From a virus: a stretch of DNA of 40,257 nucleotides. The notes beneath the pieces were generated by a model. That model made no database searches. It was not told the DNA's origin and was given only the letters and a program-made list of their open reading frames with translations. The stretch covers positions 1 to 40,257 of IMG/VR virus record IMGVR_UViG_3300027749_000011; one strand, given 5' to 3'. The position numbers and the translations under genes are program-made. Shown here in pieces: positions 181-40,257 of the stretch. Position 1 is the stretch's first letter. Each line of letters opens with the position of its first letter.

Positions 181-651
181 ATGATAATTCAACATCCATC
201 TTATCCGCATCTTGATGTAGATATTTCACAACCTAGTTATCCTAAATTTGATGGGAGCCAGAATTGTTATGGTCTACCGACAGATGTGTTCTTTCATGTC
301 AGTCAGGGTGCTGACCCAGAAGACTATCAAGAACCATGGCTAGAACCGCCTCTTGATGTGCATCCAAGTGCACGTCAACCACGCAAACCTTATCCAACTT
401 ATAGCAGGCAAGATGCTTATCTGTTGCGTATTTGTGAAACATGTCCATTTCTAAAAGAATGTTTTGCTCATGCTGTACACAATGAAGAGTTTGGTTTCTG
501 GGGTGGAACTAATGCTGGTCAACGCTCATCTATTAGACGAAGACTAAAGTTACGTCTCAATTCTATGGGATTCAATATCTTTGGTGACAAAGATGTGAAC
601 CATCTTCGTGAACTTCTTGCTAAGGAAAAGGAGGAAACTAATGGAGATTAG
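181..651 (+). CDS. whiB: WhiB-family transcription factor
   Basis: 156 aa. The four cluster cysteines of Wbl proteins are present: Cys29, then Cys85-X2-Cys88-X5-Cys94, followed by the diagnostic turn GFWGG at 105-109 and a basic stretch (RRRLKLRL, about 119-126) that fits the DNA-contact region. Wbl proteins carry a [4Fe-4S] cluster and usually bind the primary sigma factor of actinobacteria. The spacing from Cys29 to Cys85 is much longer than usual, so there is an insert of about 30 residues rich in Pro and acidic residues. RBS GGGAGG at 170-175. An operator palindrome directly upstream suggests repressor control. Phage WhiB proteins are known from mycobacteriophages, where one (TM4 WhiBTM4) alters host septation and superinfection. 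The role here is inferred to be redirection of host transcription. Confidence 0.9.
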   Translation: MIIQHPSYPHLDVDISQPSYPKFDGSQNCYGLPTDVFFHVSQGADPEDYQEPWLEPPLDVHPSARQPRKPYPTYSRQDAYLLRICETCPFLKECFAHAVHNEEFGFWGGTNAGQRSSIRRRLKLRLNSMGFNIFGDKDVNHLRELLAKEKEETNGD

Positions 652-3088: not shown

Positions 3089-3871
3089 ATGAAAACATTA
3101 ACACGGTCTGTAGGCAGACCAGAGATAGGCGGAGAGCCATTACCTAGTGTGTTCAGAACATTCGAACAGAACCAGATTGCCGTAAGGCGGTCAGAACTTT
3201 CGATGATTGCTGGAGAACCAGGAGCAGGAAAATCCACCCTTGCTCTAGCAATGGCACTACGAATGCAAGTACCAACCCTGTACCTATCCGCTGACACTAA
3301 TGCTCATACTATGGCTATGCGATTGTATTCCATGATTTCAGGTGAGTCACAAGCAGAAGCAGAGAAAGTAATCTCAGACAATCCTGTACTAGCCAAGCAA
3401 CGCTTATCTCTAGCCAACCATATCTACTGGTCCTTCGACTCGTCACCTAACCTCGGTGACCTAGACGATGAAGTGACTGCTATCGAAGAAGTACTAGGAC
3501 GTTCACCAGAACTAATCGTGGTAGATAACCTTATGGATATCTCCATGGATGGTGGTGAAGAGTTCGGTGGTATGCGTTCAGCAATGAAGGAACTAAAGTA
3601 TCTTGCAAGAGACACTAACGCTGCTGTGCTCGTACTACACCACACTAAAGAGTCCTACAACTCTGACCCTTGCCCACCTCGTGCTGCCGTACAGGGCATG
3701 GTCAACCAGTTGCCTGCACTAATCCTGACTGTTGGTCAACAGCATGGCTTGATGGGTGTGTCATCTGTGAAGAATCGTTACGGTAAGGCTGACCCTTCAG
3801 GCAACAATCCTGTATGGCTAGGCTTCAACCCAGAGTACATGTATCTGGCTGACTTGGAAGAGACACGATAA
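3089..3871 (+). CDS. RecA/DnaB-family ATPase, probable replicative helicase
   Basis: 260 aa with Walker A GEPGAGKST at 42-50, Walker B ELIVVDNLMDI near 140, and the sensor-like segment AAVLVLHHTKES followed by a substrate-loop region and KNRYGKADPSG, as in RecA-fold DnaB-type helicases. The N-terminal primase-interaction domain of full-length DnaB is absent, as is usual for short phage RecA-like helicases. RBS AAGGAGG at 3079-3085 fixes the start. It lies between the DNA-binding protein and the resolvase/primase genes, which supports a replication role. A DNA-repair recombinase (Sak4-like) is the main alternative. Confidence 0.8.
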   Translation: MKTLTRSVGRPEIGGEPLPSVFRTFEQNQIAVRRSELSMIAGEPGAGKSTLALAMALRMQVPTLYLSADTNAHTMAMRLYSMISGESQAEAEKVISDNPVLAKQRLSLANHIYWSFDSSPNLGDLDDEVTAIEEVLGRSPELIVVDNLMDISMDGGEEFGGMRSAMKELKYLARDTNAAVLVLHHTKESYNSDPCPPRAAVQGMVNQLPALILTVGQQHGLMGVSSVKNRYGKADPSGNNPVWLGFNPEYMYLADLEETR

Positions 3872-3945
3872 TGGATATTGTTATTGCTATAGGACTTTTT
3901 ACTATGCTTGCTTTCTTGCTTTGGCTGGATAGGAATGACTGGTAA
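3871..3945 (+). CDS. Single-span membrane microprotein (24 aa)
   Basis: ATG at 3871 shares its A with the helicase stop (TAATG), and its own TAA shares its last A with the ATG of the next gene at 3945. The product is MDIVIAIGLFTMLAFLLWLD followed by RNDW: one hydrophobic helix with a short charged C-terminal end. Perfect one-base overlaps on both sides argue that it is translated. Function unknown. Confidence 0.65.
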   Translation: MDIVIAIGLFTMLAFLLWLDRNDW

Positions 3946-4247
3946 TGTGCAACAAAGTAGACGATTTAAAGGAAGCCTACAATAAACTTGTTGAAGTACA
4001 GAAGGAAGCAAAACTGTATGCTGATGAAATCTATATAGAGCAAGATGAATATATAGATTTGCTAATGAAGAATAAAGCCATTCAACGTGTGCGTGAGTTG
4101 CACAAAGAAATAGATGGTAACACTAGCGTATGCGGTGACCCTGACTGCTGTGGAGAATACGAAGAAGGATACATAGTATGCGGTCATTGCTATGATGATT
4201 ATCCTTGTATGACTATCAAAGCCTTAGACGGTGAGCAGAATGAGTAA
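3945..4247 (+). CDS. Coiled-coil Zn-finger protein (100 aa)
   Basis: Residues 1-55 form an acidic/basic coiled coil. Residues 63-88 carry a knuckle with Cys-Gly-Asp-Pro-Asp-Cys-Cys, then CGHCYDDYPC. A similar C-terminal Cys motif recurs in small actinophage early proteins. It probably binds one Zn. It overlaps the resolvase-like gene by eight bases (ATGAGTAA). Confidence 0.7.
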   Translation: MCNKVDDLKEAYNKLVEVQKEAKLYADEIYIEQDEYIDLLMKNKAIQRVRELHKEIDGNTSVCGDPDCCGEYEEGYIVCGHCYDDYPCMTIKALDGEQNE

Positions 4248-4575
4248 AGCAAAACAGAAAGGCACTGCTGCAGAAACAGCAGTAGTCAACTGGCTAGTAT
4301 CAAAAGGACGCAAGCATGTTGAACGTCGCTCTCTTAACGGTGCTCTTGACCGTGGAGACATTGCTGGGATTCCAGGAGTTGTCATTGAAGTCAAGAACTG
4401 TGTCAGAGTCGAACTACCAAAGTGGATATCCGAACTAGAGACAGAGATACACAATGACAAAGCCGACACAGGTACGGTAATTCACAAGAAGCGTGGGACA
4501 ACTGATGTAGGTTACTGGTATGCTACTATGCCAGTAAGTATCTGGTACGAATTGATTAAACAAGCAGGCTACTAA
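4240..4575 (+). CDS. Holliday-junction-resolvase-like PD-(D/E)XK nuclease (111 aa)
   Basis: The ATG at 4240 is preferred over the upstream GTG at 4231. Motifs: KGTAAETAVVNWL with Glu12, then Asp40 (RGDIAGIPG) and Glu50-Val-Lys52 (VIEVKNC), the spacing expected for archaeal Hjr-type and VRR-type endonucleases. Likely job: cleaving branched DNA produced by replication or recombination before packaging. The gene stands directly before the primase. Confidence 0.75.
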   Translation: MSKAKQKGTAAETAVVNWLVSKGRKHVERRSLNGALDRGDIAGIPGVVIEVKNCVRVELPKWISELETEIHNDKADTGTVIHKKRGTTDVGYWYATMPVSIWYELIKQAGY

Positions 4576-34181: not shown

Positions 34182-34201
34182 AAGTATCTTACAAGATACT
34201 T
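34182..34201. promoter_or_regulatory. Operator palindrome copy 1
   Basis: AAGTATCTTACAAGATACTT, nine-base arms around AC; one of the two longest copies. It ends 12 bases before the -35 of the promoter that serves the HTH gene, the only copy lying upstream of its promoter, which would suit activation or autoregulation. Confidence 0.8.
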
Positions 34202-34242: not shown

Positions 34243-34298
34243 TAGTGCAACGGTTCGGGATAGTCCCGTATCGCTAAACCTGAAAGGTGGTCCTGAAA

Positions 34299-34853
34299 AT
34301 GGCTACTATCGAAAATGTAAAGTTCACTATCGCTAACCTCAAGTCCGAATACGCAACTATTGCCGACAAGTACGAGGGCAAAATTGCGGAGATGCGTGAA
34401 ACTATGCTGAATGAGCAAGCCGTGCTAGTTGCTAATACGCACCTAAAGGGAGGGTTCTCTGATGTCACTATCGGCGAGGCTTTGGGCATGACTAAGGGCA
34501 ACGTGGGCAAGGTTATTGCCCGTGGCGTGGCCGTGATGCATGGCTTTAGTGGCACGGCAACACAGCAAGCAATTGACACGGCGGGCAATGACGTGACCGT
34601 GGGTGCGCTAAAGCGTATTGGCAAGCAGAAGATGTCTAAGTCTGAGAAGGTCGAACTGTTGGAAAACTTGGGCGTTCCTAGTGTCGCTAAGTCTGCGGAA
34701 CCTCGTCAGACTAAGACCACGGCGGAGAAGACGGAGGCGGACATCAAGACACTAGAGGCTATATTTGCCCGTGCCGTGGACGGTAAGACAACACTTGCCC
34801 TTATCTATGCGGAAATTGCCCGTATCGAGTCCATCATGGGCGACATGAAATAA
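34299..34853 (+). CDS. HTH DNA-binding protein, candidate operator-binding regulator (184 aa)
   Basis: ATG at 34299 is chosen over GTG at 34287 (AAAGG is correctly spaced for the ATG). An N-terminal coiled coil (residues 1-45) is followed by a helix-turn-helix at 54-76 (DVTIGEALGMTKGNVGKVIA), a Gly/Ala linker, a basic middle (ALKRIGKQKMSKSEKVELLE) and a C-terminal helical pair. It stands alone between its own promoter/operator and a strong terminator, beside all copies of the palindrome. It is therefore the best candidate to bind GTATCTT-N2-AAGATAC. Codon third positions are richer in G and C than in neighbours. No named family recognised. Confidence 0.75.
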   Translation: MATIENVKFTIANLKSEYATIADKYEGKIAEMRETMLNEQAVLVANTHLKGGFSDVTIGEALGMTKGNVGKVIARGVAVMHGFSGTATQQAIDTAGNDVTVGALKRIGKQKMSKSEKVELLENLGVPSVAKSAEPRQTKTTAEKTEADIKTLEAIFARAVDGKTTLALIYAEIARIESIMGDMK

Positions 34854-34995: not shown

Positions 34996-35013
34996 AGTAT
35001 CTTATAAGATACT
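34996..35013. promoter_or_regulatory. Operator palindrome copy 2
   Basis: AGTATCTTATAAGATACT is a perfect 18-base palindrome (centre TA rather than AC). It lies in the GT-rich gene-free region. Confidence 0.78.
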
Positions 35014-35076
35014 TTATGTTTTTTTTGGCTGTCTGCCGACACAAACTATCTGTGTGTATGTGCGTGTGTGTGGGTG

Positions 35077-35092
35077 GTATCTTGTAAGATAC
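35077..35092. promoter_or_regulatory. Operator palindrome copy 3 (inverted)
   Basis: GTATCTTGTAAGATAC: the reverse orientation of the common copy (centre GT instead of AC). Flanking A/T bases are not conserved here. Confidence 0.75.
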
Positions 35093-35100
35093 TGTTGTAA

Positions 35101-35133
35101 TTGTGTGTGTATGTGTGTGTATGTGTGTGTATG
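35101..35133. repeat. Three-copy 10-base GT repeat
   Basis: ATGTGTGTGT repeated three times (first copy TTGTGTGTGT), alternating purine and pyrimidine. Such tracts can adopt Z-DNA or unwind easily. Together with neighbouring palindromes this could mark a replication origin, which is inference. Confidence 0.6.
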
Positions 35134-35171
35134 AAATACCCATTGGAATAAGGGTTTTTGCCTATTTGGGG

Positions 35172-35248: not shown

Positions 35249-35266
35249 AGTATCTTACAAGATACT
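35249..35266. promoter_or_regulatory. Operator palindrome copy 4
   Basis: AGTATCTTACAAGATACT, directly between the predicted promoter and the ribosome-binding site of the gene at 35285. A bound protein here would act as a roadblock to elongating polymerase. Confidence 0.8.
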
Positions 35267-35726: not shown

Positions 35727-35966
35727 ATGACGGTTAGTATCTTACAAGATACTGTTGAGGTATCTACTGTTCCACCTATTGTTATCAGTCCTGTGCTGGT
35801 GAGTGACGAGTTCTTTGGGGACTACACTCTTGAGTGCAATCTGTGTAACGCTGGCACTGGTCGTGCCGAGTACCGTACCCTTGTGGACTATGCTGCTCGT
35901 CACATTTCTTCGCAACACCCTGAAGTAATCGTTATCGAATCGGAAGAAGGTATCTCTTATGTCTAA
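35727..35966 (+). CDS. Small C2H2-type Zn-finger protein (79 aa)
   Basis: CNLCNAGTGRAEY then DYAARHISSQHPEV provide Cys-X2-Cys and His-X4-His ligands for one Zn, reminiscent of a classic finger with a longer loop. Codons 4-9 (SILQDT) are formed by an operator palindrome. ATG lies two bases after the preceding stop. Confidence 0.7.
   Translation: MTVSILQDTVEVSTVPPIVISPVLVSDEFFGDYTLECNLCNAGTGRAEYRTLVDYAARHISSQHPEVIVIESEEGISYV
35736..35753. promoter_or_regulatory. Operator palindrome copy 5, inside a gene
   Basis: AGTATCTTACAAGATACT lies ten bases into the gene at 35727 and is read as Ser-Ile-Leu-Gln-Asp-Thr. It is intact despite coding constraint. Confidence 0.8.
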
Positions 35967-37398: not shown

Positions 37399-37418
37399 AA
37401 GTATCTTACAAGATACTT
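37399..37418. promoter_or_regulatory. Operator palindrome copy 6
   Basis: AAGTATCTTACAAGATACTT, nine-base arms. It lies 41 bases after the -10 and before the ribosome-binding site AGGAGG (37441-37446) of the amidoligase gene, so the cassette appears under the same repressor as the rest of the region. Confidence 0.82.
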
Positions 37419-37451: not shown

Positions 37452-38684
37452 ATGCCAAATCTTGATGATGATAGTGTTCCAGAACTTCGTGACTGCATTG
37501 GTTGCAGTCGGACTATCGACGAGTTCACGGAACTTGGTTTCGAAGGCACTCGTGGACCTGTCTGTGAGAACTGTTCTGCTACGTGTGAGGACTGTGGTAA
37601 TCAGTTCAATGAGCAGTCTGGTTCTACCCATGCAGCAGATGGTTCTGGTAACGTGTATTGCTATCGCTGTACCCGTGACAACTGGTTCATTTGTAATCAT
37701 TGTAGTGACTGGGCTGCTGTAGACTCGTCTTCTCATACTTCTGGTGGCTATTCTGTGTGTGAGAGTTGTCGTGACCAGTATTACCATTTCTGTGATAACT
37801 GTGAAGAATACATTGATGATGATTATTCTGGTGAGCATGCATCTAACTGCTATGATAATGGTGAAATTCATCACTACGACTACCGTCCTGACCCTATCTT
37901 TATGCATACCGTGGAGGATTTTGATAATGCTCCTTTACGCAGTATGGCAAATGATACTATTATCCGTAAGTATCGTCAGATTGCCTACATGGGATTTGAG
38001 TTAGAGTTGGAATATCTGGGTGAGGGACAATACACCTTTAGCAATGGTGTAGAGATGTGCGACATCCATAATGTCACCTATCTCAAGAATGATGGTTCTC
38101 TCAATCATGGTTTCGAGATGGTAAGTCATCCAATGACTCTCGGCTGGGCTATGGAAAACTTTCCTTTTGAGGCTATTGAGCATCTCAATGATGGTAGTTT
38201 TGGAGGTTGGAATGCTGATACTGCTGGTCTGCATATTCACGTTTCTCGTGATGGCTTCTCAGGTATTTCACATCAAGCACGCTTTGTTCATCTGATTACT
38301 CGCAATAAGCATCTTTTTGAGACCTTGGCTGGTCGTAGTAGTTCTCGTTGGGCAAGGTTTGATAATGATAATCTTCGCAATATTTCACGCAAGTTGCGTA
38401 GAACTGAGCATTGTGAAAGATATCTGGCAGTAAATGTGCAGAACCGTGCCACCCTTGAGGTACGCATCTTCCAGTCATCCCTGAAGGCTGAACGTCTGAA
38501 GATGTGTCTACAACTCGTTGATGCTTCTGTGAAATACACAGAAAACCTTTCCTGTAATGATATGATTATGGGCAAGGCTCTTAGTTCCAAGTCGTTCATT
38601 GCTTGGGTCGCTAGTCGACCAGAATATGAAATCCTAAATAGTTACCTAGATAAGTTCAGTTTGACTGGACAGGTTGGAGAATAG
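37452..38684 (+). CDS. Amidoligase (GS-fold) with N-terminal Zn-knuckle array (410 aa)
   Basis: Residues 15-133 contain seven CxxC pairs (15/18, 38/41, 45/48, 70/73, 81/84, 103/106, 114/117) plus His129/Cys133, enough for about four Zn sites spaced 30-36 residues apart. From 180 an amidoligase domain (PF12224 type) runs: GFELELE (181-187), KNDGSL-NHGFEMVSHP (212-227), GLHIHVSRDGF (259-269) and NRATLEVRIFQSS. These are the metal-binding Glu, His and Arg motifs of glutamine-synthetase-like COOH-NH2 ligases. The fold activates a carboxylate with ATP and joins it to an amine. It is followed two bases later by the class II amidotransferase. The Zn array may recognise the target or nucleic acid. 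Target unknown. Confidence 0.82.
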   Translation: MPNLDDDSVPELRDCIGCSRTIDEFTELGFEGTRGPVCENCSATCEDCGNQFNEQSGSTHAADGSGNVYCYRCTRDNWFICNHCSDWAAVDSSSHTSGGYSVCESCRDQYYHFCDNCEEYIDDDYSGEHASNCYDNGEIHHYDYRPDPIFMHTVEDFDNAPLRSMANDTIIRKYRQIAYMGFELELEYLGEGQYTFSNGVEMCDIHNVTYLKNDGSLNHGFEMVSHPMTLGWAMENFPFEAIEHLNDGSFGGWNADTAGLHIHVSRDGFSGISHQARFVHLITRNKHLFETLAGRSSSRWARFDNDNLRNISRKLRRTEHCERYLAVNVQNRATLEVRIFQSSLKAERLKMCLQLVDASVKYTENLSCNDMIMGKALSSKSFIAWVASRPEYEILNSYLDKFSLTGQVGE

Positions 38685-38686
38685 TT

Positions 38687-39580
38687 ATGTGTTTACTTAT
38701 GGTTACTCTTGGAGAAATTCCTAATCGTGATTACCTTTACAATGCTAGTGAGAATAATCCTCACGGTTATGGCTTTGCCGTAAATCATGGTGACCGCATT
38801 GTTACTGGTCGTAGCATGAAGTATGAGCGTCTTATCGAGCGTTTCATTGACGAGATGGGTAACTCCAACAAGCCAGTTGGAATGTTCCACGCACGTTACA
38901 CCACTCATGGTTCTACTACGCTTGAGAACAATCACCCATTCCGTGTTGATGGTCGCCATGACATTGTGCTTGGTCACAATGGTATGCTTCCTATCACTCC
39001 TCGTGCTGGTGACGACCGTTCAGATACTCGTATCTTTGCCGAAGATATTCTGGGCTCTATAGGTGTTGAGGAACTAGACGACAAGGATACTTTCCGCCGT
39101 CTAGAAAGATTTACTGCTGGTAGCAAGGTTGCTATCTTGTCTACTGCACCAGAGTTGCGTGACCCTGTTTACATTCTCAATGAAGATGATGGTCATTGGA
39201 CTGATGGTATTTGGTGGTCTAACAGCACCTACAAATATTCATATTCCTACTCGTCGTACAGCAAGCCGTATTCCAGTTCATGGGATGCCCAAGCATGGAA
39301 TGGTGACGGCAATGTTATTGGTAGCAAGCATGCTTGGTGGGAAGAGGATGCAGATTCATGTTCACCATGTGGTGTAACTGGACCAGATGAAGAGTGTTAC
39401 GTCTGTGGTCACCAGATTACAGGCAAGGCTCTTGATAACAATGTGTGTGATGTATGCAACTCTTGCATTGATTGTAAAGAACACGTTGCATCATGCTTGT
39501 GCTACGGAATTGTAGACCGCAATGGTAACTACAATCCCAATGCTGATGCTCGCACTATCAACGAATTTCTAGGATATTAG
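38687..39580 (+). CDS. Class II glutamine amidotransferase with C-terminal Cys-rich domain (297 aa)
   Basis: Cys2 directly after the initiator Met is the N-terminal nucleophile; HARYTTHGSTTLENNHPF, LGHNGML and DRSDTRIFAED are the class II (Ntn) glutaminase motifs in order. The enzyme domain ends near 190. A Tyr/Ser-rich linker (KYSYSYSSYSKPYSSSW) follows, then a Cys-rich end (SPCGVTGPDEECYVCGHQ, CDVCNSCIDCKEHVASCLC) that probably binds Zn. It likely releases ammonia from glutamine or handles an amide for the neighbouring amidoligase. Confidence 0.85.
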   Translation: MCLLMVTLGEIPNRDYLYNASENNPHGYGFAVNHGDRIVTGRSMKYERLIERFIDEMGNSNKPVGMFHARYTTHGSTTLENNHPFRVDGRHDIVLGHNGMLPITPRAGDDRSDTRIFAEDILGSIGVEELDDKDTFRRLERFTAGSKVAILSTAPELRDPVYILNEDDGHWTDGIWWSNSTYKYSYSYSSYSKPYSSSWDAQAWNGDGNVIGSKHAWWEEDADSCSPCGVTGPDEECYVCGHQITGKALDNNVCDVCNSCIDCKEHVASCLCYGIVDRNGNYNPNADARTINEFLGY

Positions 39581-39591
39581 GAGGTATTATT

Positions 39592-39918
39592 ATGGGTAAA
39601 TTATTCCTTAGTGAGAATAAGTTTCAGGAAGTGAATATTGAGTGGTCACGTTCTAATGTCATGAACTCTATGCAGAAAGGTAATGTACGTGTTGTATTTA
39701 CGGAAATTCCAAAGGATTCCGCAGAATACAAGGCAGAAATTCCTTCTTCTCAGATTGACCCTTGGGCTCCGTTGGCATGGCAAGTTATTCGTGAAAACTA
39801 CATAGCCAATGTAGTGATTGATGAAATTGTTGCTTTTACTTGTACCATGAATGACCTGAGTTCGCTAAACCGTGCTTTGAGTGTAATACTAGACCGTGCA
39901 GCCGCACAGATACAATAA
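39592..39918 (+). CDS. Cassette protein of unknown function (108 aa)
   Basis: RBS TAGGAGG at 39579-39585. Alpha/beta character: MGKLFLSENKFQEVNIEWSR, VRVVFTEIPKDSAEYKAEIP and a C-terminal helix LNRALSVILDRAAAQIQ. It lies 11 bases after the amidotransferase and 11 bases before the acidic gene, so it is probably part of the same cassette. No family recognised. Confidence 0.72.
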   Translation: MGKLFLSENKFQEVNIEWSRSNVMNSMQKGNVRVVFTEIPKDSAEYKAEIPSSQIDPWAPLAWQVIRENYIANVVIDEIVAFTCTMNDLSSLNRALSVILDRAAAQIQ

Positions 39919-39929
39919 GGAGGACTATT

Positions 39930-40257
39930 ATGTCATTACCAAAATCAGTTACCGCCATGCTCGCAATCACCTATGAAACCCAGCAAGTTGTTGATGTAAT
40001 CTTTAGTGGGGACACGCCCGAGAAAGATAAGTTCATCAATGGCATTGCTGGTCTAGTCGCTTTAGATTTTCCAAAGTCTTTGGGTGATGTGAATTATTTT
40101 GATGAACATGGTGACCTTATAGAAAAGCCTACTATCAAACTAAACCTTGTCGATAGGTTTGAGGATTTCGAAGAATACAGCAACAAGTTTGATAAGCGTG
40201 AAGAACTTCAGGCAGAACTTAGGCAAGAACTAGAAGATGACCTTAGGGCTGAAACGG
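39930..40257 (+). CDS. N-terminal part of 116-aa acidic protein (continues at base 1)
   Basis: AAGGAGG precedes ATG 39930. The first 67 residues (MSLPKSVTAMLAITYETQQV ... DFPKSLGDVNYFDEHGDLIE) precede the 127-base repeated segment; continuation from 1 to 150 completes it. N-terminal helix-rich domain, then a charged coil (REELQAELRQELEDDLRAE) and acidic tail ending in Glu. See the entry at 1-150. Confidence 0.8.
   Translation, partial: MSLPKSVTAMLAITYETQQVVDVIFSGDTPEKDKFINGIAGLVALDFPKSLGDVNYFDEHGDLIEKPTIKLNLVDRFEDFEEYSNKFDKREELQAELRQELEDDLRAET
40131..40257. repeat. Terminal direct repeat, right copy
   Basis: Identical to 1-127; see left copy. Counting it once gives the circular length. Confidence 0.93.

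Follow-up and report, generated by a model that had tools for sequence, protein, structure and literature searches.

The window analysed here, a whole stretch of 40,257 nucleotides of viral DNA, carries an amidoligase gene with a class II glutaminase gene immediately downstream. The question raised by this locus is which reaction the two enzymes would carry out together, and on which target.

Genome context of the pair

The record has identical ends of 127 bp (positions 1-127 = 40131-40257) and on that basis probably represents the whole genome, circularised and about 40.1 kb long. The WhiB gene, together with a terminase (43%) and a tail gene (30%) similar to those of Streptomyces podoviruses, points to actinobacteria as the host of this freshwater-type virus. 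The early region runs rightward and the structural genes leftward, in the opposite direction; within the former, the pair comes after the control region and ahead of the WhiB gene. The features of the locus are collected in Table 1.

Table 1. Coordinates of the amidoligase–glutaminase locus and associated features
Feature	Position	Strand	Remark
Amidoligase gene (PF12224, GS-like carboxylate-amine ligase), 410 aa	37452..38684	+	
Putative zinc module of the amidoligase, N-terminal, Cys-rich, LIM-like, residues 15-130	37494..37841	+	
GS-like ligase domain, residues 175-405	37974..38666	+	AlphaFold model, conservation
Class II glutaminase (Ntn fold) gene, 297 aa	38687..39580	+	
Codon of Cys2, predicted N-terminal nucleophile	38690..38692	+	
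Putative zinc module of the glutaminase, C-terminal, 8 Cys	39395..39502	+	
108-aa gene, next in the same early operon	39592..39918	+	no family
117-aa gene running across the 127-bp end repeat to the record start	39930..40257	+	
WhiB gene	181-651		
18-bp palindrome AGTATCTTACAAGATACT upstream of the pair, putative operator	37400..37417	.	1 of 8 in genome
First four AGTATCTTACAAGATACT copies	149-166, 3597-3614, 34183-34200, 34996-35013		
Last four AGTATCTTACAAGATACT copies	35076-35093, 35249-35266, 35736-35753, 37400-37417		

Eight copies of the palindrome (with at most 2 mismatches) were found in the genome against 0.12 expected, mostly immediately 5' of early genes. Many relatives carry a differing palindrome of their own, in several copies per phage (15 distinct sequences), with one copy 18-51 nt before the amidoligase gene. 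An own palindrome in at least three copies was found at 31 of 76 loci, versus 32 of 742 random windows. Judged by these patterns, the palindromes across related phages look like a diversifying operator system. A 188-aa protein (34287-34853) with a weak HTH match (phrog_686) and a palindrome 5' of its gene is a candidate regulator, and simple repeats of the GTGTGTAT type occur in runs in the control region (35046-35137).

The amidoligase belongs to PF12224 and is predicted to form amides

A sequence-only reading of the locus had described two intact enzymes two bases apart, a ligase of the glutamine synthetase (GS) fold and a class II glutaminase, and both the coordinates and the motifs agree exactly with the translations of the open reading frames. 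The motifs GFELELE, EMVSHP, GLHIHVS and LEVRIF were read in the amidoligase, and Cys2, HARYTTHG and GHNG in the glutaminase; 2 nt separate the stop codon of the former from the start codon of the latter. Ribosome-binding sites precede both genes, AGGAGG before the ATG of the amidoligase and GGAG before the start codon of the glutaminase.

The PF12224 profile matched the window ligase at E=2.6e-4 (21.4 bits, slightly below the 22-bit cut-off) and 50/50 of its aligned relatives, the best at 5e-14. Among the PHROG families, 22302 (1e-30) and 25883 (9e-29) matched the two proteins, and such agreement is not due to chance. A search of annotated phages at the DNA level gave no match, and PADLOC and NCBIfam supplied no useful name. 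When solved structures were searched with the ligase sequence, only chance matches (WD40 proteins, CK2) were returned, so no close PF12224 relative appears to have been solved.

The AlphaFold model of the window ligase reached a pLDDT of 80 overall and 88-97 across much of the ligase domain, where it was mostly >85 and lower at about residues 250-330. Foldseek matched the model to YbdK, glutamine synthetase, GmaS, Dop and PafA with E-values of 3e-4 to 8e-3, the probability being 1.00 for YbdK (3e-4) and glutamine synthetase (2.7e-4) and the whole-chain TM scores low. The key residues of the domain are the GxExE motif (E183/E185), D214/S216, E222, H261/H263, R295, N328 and E336/R338. In an alignment of 256 ligases, taken from viral and from bacterial contigs, no substitution and at most a gap was seen at E183, E185, D214, S216, H261, H263, N328 and R338, and one variant each at E222 and E336. 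All of these except S216 are residues of the metal/ATP type. The proposed GS fold was thus recovered with the active-site Glu, His and Arg intact, and a PF12224 enzyme with this GS/GCS-like fold would be expected to form amides at the expense of ATP.

The partner is a class II glutaminase with an intact active site

The fold of the glutaminase was taken from the orthologue L069, whose pair was modelled as one chain by reading through the stop codon. The L069 glutaminase matched human GFAT, E. coli GlmS and EgtC; the E-values for GFAT/GlmS were about 1e-5 (TMt 0.54 against the GlmS/GFAT glutaminase domain 1xff), and EgtC (4zfk/4zfl) ranked below them at about 1e-4 to 5e-4. With fold and sequence profile both considered, the best matches were GlmS/GFAT and PurF. 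PF13230 matched the window glutaminase at 1.4e-4 and 38/38 relatives.

Cys2 was present in 231 of 232 glutaminases, the remaining one having a gap at this site, and H68, R70, N98 and G99 were invariant (n=232). These include the glutamine-binding Arg (R70) and the oxyanion Asn-Gly (N98-G99). D113, the candidate substrate-binding Asp of the GlmS Asp123 type, showed no variation among 38 close relatives; it was not invariant in the diverse alignment, whose sequences align poorly in this region. The class II assignment of the sequence-only reading is upheld by the fold matches and the conserved Cys2. The ligase had dN/dS values of 0.11-0.21 and the glutaminase values of 0.05-0.12; with an overall range of 0.05-0.21 and active sites that do not vary, both enzymes are being selected to stay active.

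Both proteins carry cysteine-rich modules

The least ordinary feature of the pair, overlooked in the sequence-only reading, is a putative zinc module on each protein. The ligase module contains seven CxxC pairs (15/18, 38/41, 45/48, 70/73, 81/84, 103/106 and 114/117). Thirteen of its cysteines were invariant in 50 relatives (31-75% identity to the window ligase), and C84 and C130 were kept in at least 90% of the 50. The first eight cysteines are spaced C-x2-C-x19-C-x2-C-x3-C-x2-C-x21-C-x2-C, which is LIM-like; the Foldseek LIM matches to the ligase model were weak (E 0.09-0.3), there was no Pfam LIM match, and a similar viral protein in BFVD bears the LIM name. In the glutaminase module, C237, C240, C254, C257, C260, C263, C270 and C272 were all invariant in 38 relatives, and the module is missing from most of the distant glutaminases. 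Outside the cysteines, pairwise identity was 28% in the ligase module versus 56% in its catalytic domain, and 25% versus 60% for the glutaminase. From the cysteine pattern, we infer that both modules bind zinc. No paper connecting a phage amidoligase with zinc and a LIM domain was found in the literature searched, subscription papers being outside its scope.

The two genes are linked and co-vary

Scans of viral and bacterial contigs gave 260 ligase loci among the best matches (99 clusters at 60% identity), of which 243 loci (97 clusters) had at least 900 nt of downstream sequence and could be evaluated. A glutaminase gene on the same strand, no more than 350 nt downstream, was found at 227 of the 243 loci and in 88 of the 97 clusters, counts that lean towards the query families, as only best matches were retained. 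At several of the remaining 16 loci the glutaminase was upstream or farther off, and the truly solitary ligases belonged mostly to one Clostridium-phage group without the zinc module. Linkage in related phages, on which the sequence-only reading depended, is therefore conserved. Moreover, ligase and glutaminase distances were correlated (0.947 among 52 phages, and 0.776 when terminase distance was controlled for), so that their co-variation exceeds what kinship between the phages would explain.

In bacterial genomes, the pair was found mainly in gut Clostridia, often close to resolvases or integrases (a resolvase about 2.3 kb downstream in 39 of 80 bacterial loci), and by these neighbours it looks mobile. 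In a single Agathobaculum genome the pair occurred three times, on separate contigs and at differing loci (L210, L221, L244). Core-gene status in the terminase lineage of the window was considered and rejected, since of the 22 loci extending 7 kb or more upstream of the terminase just 7 have the ligase. It was missing from 10 of the 13 terminase-lineage records searched, and three records of this lineage of about 40 kb were without the pair, which is optional even here. In one pair-less relative (L259), a DUF932 gene (3419-4384) occupies the equivalent place, after the control region and before WhiB. The pair is far commoner than the few published cases. In about 90 diverged clusters, drawn from viruses and from mobile elements of bacteria, it is a conserved unit whose active sites do not vary and whose ligase usually bears the zinc module.

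Proposed function and alternatives

We put at about even the chance that the pair is a two-subunit glutamine-dependent amidoligase, acting early in infection on a host carboxylate. The class II glutaminase would release ammonia from glutamine by means of its Cys2 nucleophile, and the GS-fold ligase would spend ATP to activate the carboxylate as an acyl phosphate. The ammonia, which we infer to pass from the glutaminase to the ligase, would then be joined to the activated carboxylate to give a carboxamide. The zinc modules, on the ligase and in this lineage also on the glutaminase, may serve to grip the target or to link the two subunits. As target, a cytoplasmic host envelope peptide precursor would be the most likely class, and its amidation may give the phage an advantage over competitors or in the face of host responses. 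Amidation of cell-wall peptides has been proposed for phage cassettes (PMC5498523, PMC10580990), and by this analogy the target is possibly an envelope peptide precursor, which is compatible with the broad host range and with an accessory, early gene.

The folds, the invariant sites, the linkage and co-variation, the gene order in other phages and the dN/dS values argue for this split amidotransferase. In known amidotransferases the class II glutaminase is usually fused to the synthase, yet a search for a fusion of ligase with glutaminase found no fused ORF, which counts against it. In the joined L069 model the domains were good, but the pTM was 0.52 and the two proteins were not docked reliably. 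Stand-alone Ntn proteins of the EgtC type, which hydrolyse gamma-glutamyl compounds, also fit the glutaminase fold about equally well.

This last point leads to the main rival, a pair of the EgtA/EgtC kind, an option missed in the sequence-only reading and one to which we assign a smaller though real share of the probability. Here the ligase would couple an amine in a gamma-glutamyl or similar amide, and a gamma-glutamyl bond would later be hydrolysed by the Ntn protein, so that a small modified metabolite or side chain is made or trimmed without ammonia transfer. EgtC ranks with the best fold matches obtained for the glutaminase, which stands alone as EgtC does; the ligase matches YbdK, a gamma-glutamate-cysteine-ligase-like enzyme; and an amidoligase occurs with a gamma-glutamyl cyclotransferase, which also cleaves gamma-glutamyl compounds, in Tn6164, Arthrobacter phages and LUZ24. 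The fold and sequence-profile matches of the glutaminase, however, are best for GlmS/GFAT and PurF, the genome has no cyclotransferase, and no other ergothioneine-type gene appeared in the family scans.

Protein modification (side-chain amidation, glutamylation or a peptide tag), in which the zinc module would recognise the target, seems unlikely. LIM-like zinc modules usually bind proteins, and the ligase module evolves faster than the ligase domain except at its cysteines, although fast evolution can also reflect weak constraint. Pup/PafA-like tagging is one version of this explanation, put forward in the sequence-only reading, and it was not borne out: Dop and PafA are within the fold matches of the ligase but in mid-ranking positions, outranked by YbdK and glutamine synthetase, and a search of the neighbours found no small companion ORF common across lineages as a tag candidate. 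A role as auxiliary metabolic genes feeding ammonia to host nitrogen metabolism, as proposed for Phage-ZRK32 with its amidoligase, glutaminase, glutathione synthase and cyclotransferase (PMC10945688), is very improbable, given that the zinc modules, the tight pair and the distribution on mobile elements better fit a specific modification and that the growth promotion by ZRK32 came from the whole phage rather than from these genes (PMC10945688).

A more specific possibility, which we regard as a long shot, is a widespread mobile module whose LIM-like zinc part steers a glutamine-fed ligase to one specific host protein. If true, this would be a new phage-encoded system of protein amidation or glutamylation, spanning phages of several host groups and gut-clostridial integrative elements.

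Comparison with known systems

The ligase and PafA/Dop share the GS-like fold superfamily, and the differences are the lower-ranking structural match and the lack of a Pup-like partner among the genes searched here; we know of no glutaminase partner of PafA/Dop. EgtA/EgtC combines a GCS-like ligase with a class II Ntn amidohydrolase, and EgtC is a top fold match, but the pathway partners of ergothioneine synthesis were not seen in this genome. To our knowledge, EgtA/EgtC has no zinc modules.

Pairs of amidoligase and glutaminase have been described in LUZ24-like and phiEco32-like phages (PMC3890496), in Pseudoalteromonas phage PSA-HP1 and its relatives, where the pair was called a peptidoglycan modification cassette (PMC5498523), and in OM43 phages and Marvin (PMC10580990). 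In PMC5498523 and PMC10580990 the LUZ24/phiEco32-type cassette is cited to Iyer 2009 and Hardies 2013. Phage pairs have been known from about 2009. No report of the product was found in the literature on such pairs. The pairing itself is thus already known, and what sets the window apart is the putative LIM-like zinc module of the ligase with its 13-15 Cys, the 8-Cys module of the glutaminase and the missing cyclotransferase.

The order of ligase and then glutaminase is common to LUZ24, phiEco32, Marvin and MEP402. As in the window, the LUZ24 and phiEco32 glutaminase directly follows the amidoligase on one strand in the early region, and it has cysteines close to its C-terminus. The ligases of these phages, however, open directly with the GS-fold domain, without an N-terminal zinc module, and comparison of the ligase profiles shows only distant similarity (hhalign probability 60%). 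Their cassettes also add a COOH-NH2 ligase, an ATP-grasp enzyme and a gamma-glutamyl cyclotransferase. PF06094 (cyclotransferase) matched nothing in the record and did match its controls; PF14395 (second COOH-NH2 ligase) matched nothing in the record, but its controls were also unmatched; and no ATP-grasp match was obtained among the larger ORFs scanned. In the OM43 phages MEP401/MEP402 the amidoligase likewise adjoins the glutaminase (PMC10580990), but the N-terminus of the ligase is longer and different, without the full zinc module, and the glutaminase has no C-terminal one.

The Marvinvirus phages, including Marvin (gp105/gp106), have both genes in identical order, usually annotated as 'glutamine amidotransferase domain'. 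Their ligase is ~31-40% identical over the matched part, and Cys clusters occupy the corresponding ends of both proteins. The Marvin ligase differs in its shorter N-terminal zinc region and longer C-terminus, and 79 nt lie between the genes. The pair is a defined, testable module, for which Marvin-type mycobacteriophages offer a laboratory system.
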